The translations under genes and the position numbers were made by a program. 26,268 bases of DNA from a virus: positions 1 through 26,268 of the IMG/VR virus record IMGVR_UViG_3300048023_000500, one strand, 5' to 3'. This document shows, one piece after another, positions 2,716-19,889 of the stretch (position 1 is its first letter; each line of letters begins with the position of its first letter). Under the pieces are notes generated by a model. That model was not told the DNA's origin, searched no databases, and saw only the letters and a list, made by a program, of their open reading frames with translations.

Positions 2716-2955
2716 ATGTTTTTGATTGATTGGATTAAAGGCTTATTTTGTAAAGATGAAACTCCTGCTAAAGTAGACCCAGTAAAGGAGCCAAAGAAGG
2801 CTGCTGTTGCTAAAGGTCCTAAGGTTACTAAAGCTGCGTTAGGTAAACTAACAAAAGCTGACCTTGAGACAGAAGGTCGTAAAGCAGGTATTGAACTTGA
2901 CAAAAGAAAAAAGAAAGCCGAATTAGTTGATGAACTTTATAAAGTTTTAAAATAA
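2716..2955 (+). CDS. SAP-domain-like small protein
   Basis: A 79-residue protein with a hydrophobic N-terminus (FLIDWIKGLFC, residues 2-12), then a lysine/proline/alanine linker. The C-terminal module (about 40-79) carries the helix-turn-helix pattern of SAP-type or Rho-N-like motifs: LTKADLETEGRKAGIEL followed by KKKAELVDELYKVL. Such modules typically bind DNA or other nucleic acid. A strong GGAG ribosome binding site precedes the start. It sits among late genes, so a DNA-associated virion or packaging role is possible, but no direct evidence exists here. Confidence 0.7.
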   Translation: MFLIDWIKGLFCKDETPAKVDPVKEPKKAAVAKGPKVTKAALGKLTKADLETEGRKAGIELDKRKKKAELVDELYKVLK

Positions 2956-2973
2956 TAAATTAGGAGAATAACA

Positions 2974-3270
2974 ATGGCACTATGGGGAAAAACAGACGCT
3001 GCAGCTAGCGTACCAAAGTGGCTCGAAACTGCCGCAGGCAATACTAATAAGTCAAACGACGAAGACAATGCAGTCTTTGTTGACTTAACAGAAGCAGGCG
3101 TCGCAGCTAACAGAGCTAAAGGTCTTAAAGGACCAGGTTGGTGGTTATATCATACAGCCAATGGCCGTCACTTCGCGGAATGCTTAGTTCCGATGAAAGT
3201 ATCAGCAGCTAATGCTGGTGACTTAGGTGTAGACGGTACAGGTGATGATACAGTTGTAGCTGACGCTTAA
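2974..3270 (+). CDS. Putative virion structural or decoration protein
   Basis: A 98-residue, alanine- and glycine-rich protein with the patterns MALWGKTD at the start, VFVDLTEAGVAANRAKGLKGPGWWLY in two consecutive blocks near the centre, and HFAECLV. This layout resembles a small protein family repeatedly annotated as structural in marine T4-like phages, as I recall it. It has a very good ribosome binding site (TTAGGAGAA) and is followed by a probable terminator, both fitting a highly expressed late protein. No enzymatic residues are evident. The call rests on pattern memory and context, not on a search. Confidence 0.6.
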   Translation: MALWGKTDAAASVPKWLETAAGNTNKSNDEDNAVFVDLTEAGVAANRAKGLKGPGWWLYHTANGRHFAECLVPMKVSAANAGDLGVDGTGDDTVVADA

Positions 3271-7085: not shown

Positions 7086-7604
7086 ATGGATACCAAGCCT
7101 ATGAGCGATATAGATCAGAATCTTTCTGGTGTAAAAACCGATGTTGCGTTAATCAAAAAAGACATCAAACAAATAGAGAAGTTTTTCTCTAAGTACGAGT
7201 ACATCATCGAAAAGTCAGGTGAACGCGATAAGCGTATTGCCGTTCAACACGAGATACTTAACGGTGTTGCAGACAAGATAGAAAATCTTGACATTAAAAT
7301 AGAACAAACCAAATTTGATACAGCAAAGGATTTGGCAATAGTTCACGACAGATTAGAACAGTATAGAGCTTCTTCAAGAGAAGATCATCAAAGACTATCT
7401 GATAACAACGCAGCTCATCGCAAAGAACGCAATCAAGAGATCATGGATGCGTTAGGTAAATTAAACGGTAATCTCGATAAACGTATATCGGAGATGGAAG
7501 GTAGAGTAACCAGCCTGGATCGTTGGAAATGGTACATGATGGGTATGGGAGCTATTCTTATATTCATAATCACCAAATTGGATATTCCTAAAATATTTGG
7601 TTGA
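7086..7604 (+). CDS. Coiled-coil protein with C-terminal membrane anchor, possible holin or lysis accessory
   Basis: A 172-residue protein. Residues about 8-145 are highly charged with long heptad-like stretches (KKDIKQIEKF, VADKIENLDIKIEQ, KRISEMEGRVTSLDRW). Residues about 147-168 form a single membrane segment (WKWYMMGMGAILIFIITKL). This tail-anchored topology resembles XhlA-type lysis-associated proteins, whose last part also reads SLxxWxWY followed by a membrane span. Similar proteins occur in marine phages. Because it lies after lysozyme and a spanin-like pair, a holin or lysis-accessory role is plausible but unproven. An in-frame ATG at 7101 is an alternative start; neither start has a good ribosome binding site. 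Confidence 0.7.
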   Translation: MDTKPMSDIDQNLSGVKTDVALIKKDIKQIEKFFSKYEYIIEKSGERDKRIAVQHEILNGVADKIENLDIKIEQTKFDTAKDLAIVHDRLEQYRASSREDHQRLSDNNAAHRKERNQEIMDALGKLNGNLDKRISEMEGRVTSLDRWKWYMMGMGAILIFIITKLDIPKIFG

Positions 7605-19287: not shown

Positions 19288-19316
19288 TTGACATTTTGAG
19301 TAAACTATAGTATAAT
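19288..19316 (+). promoter_or_regulatory. Consensus sigma70 promoter, TTGACA-17-TATAAT
   Basis: Perfect -35 (19288-19293) and -10 (19311-19316) with a 17-base spacer, in the gap after the SNase gene. Only 9 bases separate the -10 from the ATG at 19326, so the message would be almost leaderless. Confidence 0.85.
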
Positions 19317-19325
19317 ATACAGTAT

Positions 19326-19616
19326 ATGAGATATAATAATAACAATGGTGGGCTGTCAGTCGACTTGACTCCAAGAAAAAGACATCCAAAAGATAAAAGA
19401 CCTCCAACTCCAATGCCATTTGATATTGGGTTGAGAAAGTTTAAGAAGAATGTTGAAAAGGCAGGAATCTTAAAAGAACTTAGAGCAAGGGAGTATTACG
19501 AGAAACCTACTGCGAAAAGGAAAAGAAAAAAGGCTGAGGCTGTAAAAAGACATCAGAAGAAATTGCAGAGCGAAATGAGAAGTTTCAATGCAAGAGGTCA
19601 AAGACATTACAGATAA
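19326..19616 (+). CDS. Small basic hypothetical protein
   Basis: A 96-residue very basic protein with a long lysine/arginine-rich C-terminal half ([28 protein letters not shown]). The N-terminus carries an asparagine run and [21 protein letters not shown] nucleic-acid-binding role is plausible from charge alone. It is controlled by its own consensus promoter, with an almost leaderless start; no in-frame ATG further downstream fits better. No family is recognised. Confidence 0.65.
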
Positions 19617-19639: not shown

Positions 19640-19668
19640 TTGACATTCTCTAATATCTTTGTTATAAT
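19640..19668 (+). promoter_or_regulatory. Consensus sigma70 promoter of the non-coding segment
   Basis: Perfect TTGACA (19640-19645) and TATAAT (19663-19668) with a 17-base spacer. The expected start, 7-8 bases after the -10, falls on about G19676, exactly where the terminal stem of the downstream RNA begins. Confidence 0.88.
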
Positions 19669-19675
19669 ATAATTT

Positions 19676-19867
19676 GAGACGGTGGGAATTAAACCATGAC
19701 GGCGAGATGGAATCACGGAGTTAATAGCTCTACCATTTAGGACCCACGACGGCTACCGAGTTCAGGAGCAACTTTTGAACTACCGACCGACTTACCGAAC
19801 GACGAAAGTTTTGAGGTAGGTCAACTGAGTAGGGATCTAACGCCAACGAACCAACCACTGTCTCCCC
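19676..19867 (+). ncRNA. Candidate structured non-coding RNA or long structured leader
   Basis: A stretch of about 190 bases without a credible gene, directly behind a consensus promoter. By hand count about 97 of 192 bases are G or C, well above the AT-rich surroundings. The ends pair over 10 bases with one G-U: 19676-19685 (GAGACGGTGG) with 19855-19864 (CCACTGTCTC). Inside are a hairpin 19759-19764/19776-19781 (AGTTCA/TGAACT), a long hairpin 19789-19796/19815-19822 (GACTTACC/GGTAGGTC, one G-U) extended by 19797-19800/19808-19811, and a stem 19705-19710/19733-19738 enclosing GGAGT/GCTCT. A local GTGGG/CCCAC pairing (19682-19686/19743-19747) competes with the terminal stem. No known family (tRNA, tmRNA, 6S, RNase P) is recognised. 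It could be a free RNA or the leader of the gene at 19890. A 14-codon frame starts at 19696 but looks incidental. Confidence 0.65.
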
Positions 19868-19889
19868 TTATTTGAATAGAGTTTATAAT

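Follow-up and report, generated by a model that had tools for sequence, protein, structure and literature searches.

Phage T4 carries two small RNAs that are annotated as stable, rnaC (species 1, 139 nt) and rnaD (species 2, 119 nt), and neither of them is known to have an assigned function. Other structured RNAs were recognized in marine metagenomes, such as manA (RF01745), wcaG (RF01761) and PhotoRC-II (RF01717), which are also present in cyanophages and adjoin genes that they may regulate (PMC2864571). The ornate RNAs GOLLD and ROOL are large, structured and partly linked to phages and prophages. Their structures have been reported (PMC12286853).

In the DNA analysed here, a stretch of 26,268 nt from virus record IMGVR_UViG_3300048023_000500 (referred to as the window), positions 19676 to 19864 of the plus strand very likely encode a selected structured RNA belonging to a new phage family, a conclusion that is inferred from sequence alone, the function being untested. 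This RNA is comparable to rnaC and rnaD in that all are small RNAs of T4-like phages with similar lengths. However, the two T4 RNAs lie in a tRNA cluster, rnaC has the tRNA-like T-arm sequence GGTTCGAATCC, and our covariance model of the new family (R1) found nothing in the T4 record NC_000866 at E values up to 10. The RNAs manA, wcaG and PhotoRC-II do not match the window or its homologues and, unlike them, one clade of the new RNA is placed behind the gene of ribosomal protein bS21 with a promoter after the RNA. GOLLD and ROOL are several times longer, and the Rfam scan gave no match to them at the new RNA. The 6S RNA is similar in length and also has paired 5' and 3' ends, but it forms one long hairpin with a central bubble whereas the new RNA is two-armed with a long-range helix, and again there was no Rfam match. 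We regard rnaC and rnaD as the nearest RNAs by kind and manA, wcaG and PhotoRC-II as the nearest by habitat, with no relative by sequence or by model. The family is new in the sense that no known family matches it; structured phage RNAs as a broader kind have been described before, and we do not claim a new mechanism.

The genes identified in the window encode NrdA, SHMT, NifU, a nuclease, bS21, a 138-aa protein of phrog_27048 and an ATP-dependent DNA ligase. The features of the RNA locus are the following.

19326-19616, plus strand: upstream gene, ribosomal protein bS21 (Pfam PF01165, 4e-17; phrog_21469)
19640-19668, plus strand: sigma-70 consensus promoter (TTGACA 19640-19645, 17-nt spacer, TATAAT 19663-19668)
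19676-19864, plus strand: structured RNA, 189 nt from the predicted +1 to the end of the terminal stem
19676-19685, plus strand: 5' strand of P1, GAGACGGTGG, pairing with 19855-19864
19694-19752, plus strand: arm A, near-invariant, an internal loop and then P3
19705-19738, plus strand: P3, variable hairpin (19705-19710/19733-19738, inner hairpin 19717-19722/19726-19731)
19760-19763, plus strand: 5' strand of P4, GUUC, long-range, pairing with 19848-19851
19764-19776, plus strand: 3-bp hairpin (19764-19766/19774-19776) with the conserved loop AGCAAC at 19767-19772
19780-19832, plus strand: P5 (19780-19783/19829-19832), compensatory changes in 4 of 4 pairs
19789-19796/19815-19822, plus strand: P6, optional hairpin inserted in P5, absent or replaced in many homologues
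19839-19846, plus strand: conserved unpaired stretch AACGCCAA, ACRCCAA in nearly all full-length homologues
19848-19851, plus strand: 3' strand of P4, GAAC, 99% of cells paired
19855-19864, plus strand: 3' strand of P1, CCACTGTCTC, both-sided changes in 8 of 9 modelled pairs
19865-19874, plus strand: weak U-rich tract CCCTTATTTG after P1
19890-20306, plus strand: downstream gene, 138 aa, function unknown (phrog_27048)

The promoter agrees with the consensus at 12 of 12 positions. Since the window contains seven perfect TTGACA-TATAAT sites on the plus strand (at 7601, 16792, 19288, 19640, 20786, 23459 and 25506), a promoter is by itself weak evidence for an RNA, and no comparable RNA was found behind the other six. 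The phage seems to depend on host sigma-70 consensus promoters, given these seven perfect sites in 26 kb. One of them precedes bS21 (19288-19326). Only about 10 nt separate its -10 box from the first ATG of the ORF, and the bS21 mRNA may therefore be leaderless or begin at a later codon.

The 189 nt behind the promoter have a GC content of 49.7% against 36.5% in the flanks. We take the region to be non-coding because five of the six reading frames are interrupted by stops and indels of 20 and 34 nt occur among the homologues, and a protein-coding reading was rejected. The folding of the window sequence was better than that of 200 out of 200 dinucleotide shuffles (z -2.8). The Rfam 15 scan at the gathering threshold gave 0 matches in the window, and a permissive scan returned only S774 with an E value of 7.6; on these scans a known RNA family was rejected. 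Scanning the homologues gave only tRNAs, and scanning the mini RNA and the arm-B module described below gave no match. ARAGORN called no tRNA or tmRNA gene in the window, nor at the position of the RNA in the homologues, and such an identity was rejected. The open literature that we searched contains no description of this RNA; subscription journals and most preprints were outside the search, and an earlier description cannot be excluded.

Homologues were collected from contigs fetched via the neighbouring ligase gene, by pattern scans, through the neighbouring genes and with the covariance model. They were found in about 65 viral contigs, many of them near-identical, with one copy per contig, and in the contigs fetched via the ligase gene the RNA occupies the same place. 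Model R1 scores 153.2 bits at 19677-19863 of the window and 116 to 174 bits in the homologues, with about 40 for the reduced forms. Identity among homologues is 79-94% in the aligned parts. The window RNA is 85-94% identical to most of them, compared with 68-89% for the flanking genes, and in most comparisons it is at least as conserved as these genes.

The larger contigs bearing the RNA encode a capsid protein Gp23 of the T4 type, which is why we consider the carriers to be uncultured T4-like phages, the host not being established. Gp23 of one of these contigs (G001) is about 65% identical to Gp23 of the Sinorhizobium phages phiN3 and phiM12, and equally to that of Stenotrophomonas phage DLP_6 and Methylophilales phage Melnitz. 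No match was obtained by BLAST against isolate phages, and R1 gave a best E value of 0.18 on the isolate T4-like phages T4, HTVC008M, Melnitz, phiM12, DLP_6, S-WAM1 and PhiW-14. A partial DNA pattern scan of host genome contigs gave only chance matches, and no copy was detected by R1 among 385 genomes drawn from a single class, a search without positive control.

The RNA is supported by covariation. In a structure-blind MAFFT alignment of the 32 distinct sequences, the whole tested structure had 96.6% of its cells paired, compared with 28-54% in the slid controls, and none of 500 shuffles reached as high a value. In this same alignment pairing reached 99% in P4 and 100% in P5, and 7 of their 8 pairs had changed on both sides. 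In an alignment fitted to the covariance model 98.7% of the cells were paired, with both-sided changes in 18 of 27 pairs. P1 was assessed in this second alignment, where the count leans to the structure. Its sequence is wholly different in other gene contexts and the complementarity is kept. Compensatory substitutions beyond chance, the membership test applied for a structured RNA, are thus present.

P4 is the clearest case, as it ranks first in an all-pairs covariation scan of the sequence-only alignment (z 10.6). Its 5' strand is GUUC in the window and GUCC, CUUC, AUUA, UUUC, AUCC or GUAC elsewhere, and each variant has its own complement behind the AACGCCAAA stretch. Ten distinct helices were observed, and at least 13 state changes, matching on both sides, were counted on a tree for which only the unpaired columns were used. 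The 3-bp hairpin next to P4 has 100% standard pairs, and its changes are one-sided only.

Arm A is composed of the outer pairs CC/GG (19694-19695/19751-19752), which become GC/GC in L470 and L471, a symmetric AYGAC/AYGAC internal loop (19696-19700 and 19746-19750) and the inner pairs GG/CC (19701-19702/19744-19745). In the loop (columns 20-24 and 88-92 of alignment A2) one of the two Y bases is usually U and the other C, and they are swapped between clades (AUGAC with ACGAC, or ACGAC with AUGAC), a correlation that is not of the Watson-Crick type. In many homologues the place of P3 is taken by a short stem capped by a GNRA loop.

The preliminary description, made without homologues, had proposed most of this locus. 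The promoter held exactly, as did the 10-bp terminal stem at the predicted start and the account of some 190 bases of about 50% GC without a credible gene; the hairpins at 19705-19738 (P3) and 19789-19822 (P6) are supported by the homologues. The hairpin drawn at 19759-19781 held only in part, since the 3-bp element remains and the rest is replaced by P4: L085, L102 and L470 cannot form the local pairing, and in them the bases corresponding to 19760-19763 keep their long-range partner. That description had also called for an Rfam covariance search, for homologues and for a covariation test of the named stems. The first agrees with its remark that no family was recognised, and the last shows compensatory changes in P1, P4 and P5. 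An own promoter was confirmed for 32 of the 37 copies inspected, and the separate transcript starting near 19676 is only predicted, as there are no transcript data.

Other structural proposals were discarded. A pairing of GGCG 19701-19704 with CGCC 19841-19844, seen in some minimum-energy folds, has no covariation and is broken by CACC in L022 and L046. A kink-turn for the CYRA/ACUG loop was rejected because the base after ACUG varies, leaving no GA pair.

One of the characteristics of the family is its modularity. Arm B is missing and arm A is kept in L447, L472 and L475, and in L472 and its near-copies a module similar to arm B, with its own closing stem, lies behind this mini RNA. In L493-L496 arm A is reduced to CC-ACGAC-GCUC-CUA-GAGC-AUGAC-GG inside P1 (59 nt in L493), and L497 has only the P1 hairpin, both arms being missing. 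From these reduced forms, the core common to all except L497 consists of P1 and the twin AYGAC motif, and the natural variants range from about 60 to 195 nt.

The RNA is found in at least three gene neighbourhoods with unrelated downstream genes, always on the coding strand just ahead of an ORF. It is placed between bS21 and the phrog_27048 gene (context 1), before a gene of 70-74 aa beginning MKWLAT, often behind an epimerase gene (context 2), or before a 447-aa gene (context 3). The context-3 protein (L472:9184-10527) has no Pfam family, and its C-terminus shows a weak match to a type II restriction enzyme model (PADLOC PDLC03418). In one contig (L451, about 2840-3000) an MKWLAT-type gene occurs without the family RNA, and there, behind a near-consensus promoter, lie a different closed hairpin RNA (AAGATATTAG...CTAATATCTT) and a tRNA-like sequence ending GGTTCGATTCC..CCA that ARAGORN did not call there.

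In the 32 promoter-bearing copies the promoter sets P1 at about +1, with 4-9 nt between the -10 box and P1; the sole exception is L126, with 15 nt. The other five (L092, L102, L471, L100 and L090) have no own promoter in front of the RNA, and their upstream bS21 gene has a perfect one, so that they may be co-transcribed with bS21, although this is inferred without transcript data. In L092, L102 and L471 the RNA is directly behind bS21 and a perfect promoter separates it from the downstream gene, which means that it is not the promoter-proximal leader of that gene; L100 and L090 have no promoter before or after the RNA. Most homologues have a T4-T7 tract within 1-3 nt of P1; the U-tracts of the window and of contexts 2 and 3 are weak.

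We favour, with a confidence that does not go beyond as likely as not and without transcript data, a stand-alone phage RNA acting mainly in trans through a bound partner. Action in trans is inferred because the neighbours change, one clade has its promoter after the RNA and no expression platform is clearly conserved. Further support is taken from the covariation, the three contexts, the spacing between promoter and P1, the T4-T7 tract, the identity of the RNA relative to its flanks and the single copy. Against it stand the read-through, the constant co-directional ORF, the weak U-tracts and the bare hairpin of L497, which retains the promoter. As no other promoter lies close to the genes directly behind the RNA, in the window and in most homologues, there must be read-through, and this suits a leader equally.

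A cis-acting 5' leader that controls the downstream operon, be it a riboswitch-like aptamer, a protein-binding attenuator with P1 and the U-tract as terminator, or a 5' structure protecting the mRNA from decay, remains a serious rival, although we lean slightly against it. It is supported by the position of P1 at the predicted +1, by the ORF within about 17-75 nt in promoter-bearing contexts, by the window genes lying just downstream without another nearby promoter and by the other candidate cis-regulatory RNAs of marine T4-like phages, manA, wcaG and PhotoRC-II (PMC2864571). Moreover, forms ranging from the bare 5' hairpin of L497 to arm A precede the same context-3 gene, and a hairpin that keeps its promoter suits an element of the mRNA 5' end. 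Nevertheless the downstream genes have no family in common, and in L092, L102 and L471 the downstream gene has its own promoter, so that the RNA is not in the 5' UTR of a regulated gene throughout the family, as would be expected of a riboswitch. An expression platform is not clearly conserved either: most context-1 copies have the U-tract, contexts 2 and 3 have a poor one or none, and pairing of the Shine-Dalgarno region is partial and inconsistent.

Alternatively, the element could belong to the 3' end of the bS21 transcript, ending, stabilising or regulating this mRNA, perhaps through bS21 binding its own message. This would agree with bS21 being directly upstream in the context-1 contigs that reach that far and with the five inspected copies lacking an own promoter behind a bS21 gene that has a perfect one. 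We find it unlikely, given the own promoter of the other copies, the many phages with a related bS21 that lack the RNA, and contexts 2 and 3, where no bS21 adjoins the RNA and which exclude bS21 autoregulation as a general role. Many other phage contigs (L391-L443) have a bS21 that is about 61-75% identical and no RNA nearby. A chance fold or a selfish, functionless hairpin is practically ruled out; for the short homologue L043 the single-sequence folding energy is no more than moderate (z -1.4), but three helices show compensatory changes that withstand shuffle and slide controls and recur on the tree, and the unpaired motifs are conserved across three contexts. Unless the alignments are wrong, covariation refutes a chance fold. 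A CsrA sponge, suggested by several GGA motifs, was rejected as GGA is not conserved in L126.

In the favoured trans-acting reading, host RNA polymerase would start the RNA at the sigma-70 promoter at P1, or co-transcribe it with bS21, and transcription would tend to end in the U-rich tract behind P1, with read-through to the next gene. The molecule is closed by P1 and comprises arm A, with its AYGAC/AYGAC loop and variable hairpin, and arm B, with P4, the AGCAAC hairpin, P5 and the optional hairpin, a fold that is shown by comparison. With both ends hidden by P1, a stable RNA of about 70-195 nt may accumulate. A partner from host or phage, as yet unidentified, would be bound by conserved nucleotides that are left unpaired in arm A, and in arm B if the copy has one, and through this binding the RNA would act in trans during the take-over of the cell.

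Few phage RNAs are known with a complex fold supported by covariation. Since this family has a common core and short natural variants, it can be directly made, probed and tested, and it indicates that reading the raw DNA of uncultured phages can reveal RNA genes missed by annotation. A bolder reading, which we consider no more than possible, is that of a modular trans-acting RNA made by the host polymerase, in which arm A would be an independent protein- or ligand-binding module used alone, with arm B, or beside a separate arm-B module. If true, T4-like marine phages would use such an RNA to re-programme a host machine, for example the ribosome or RNA polymerase.
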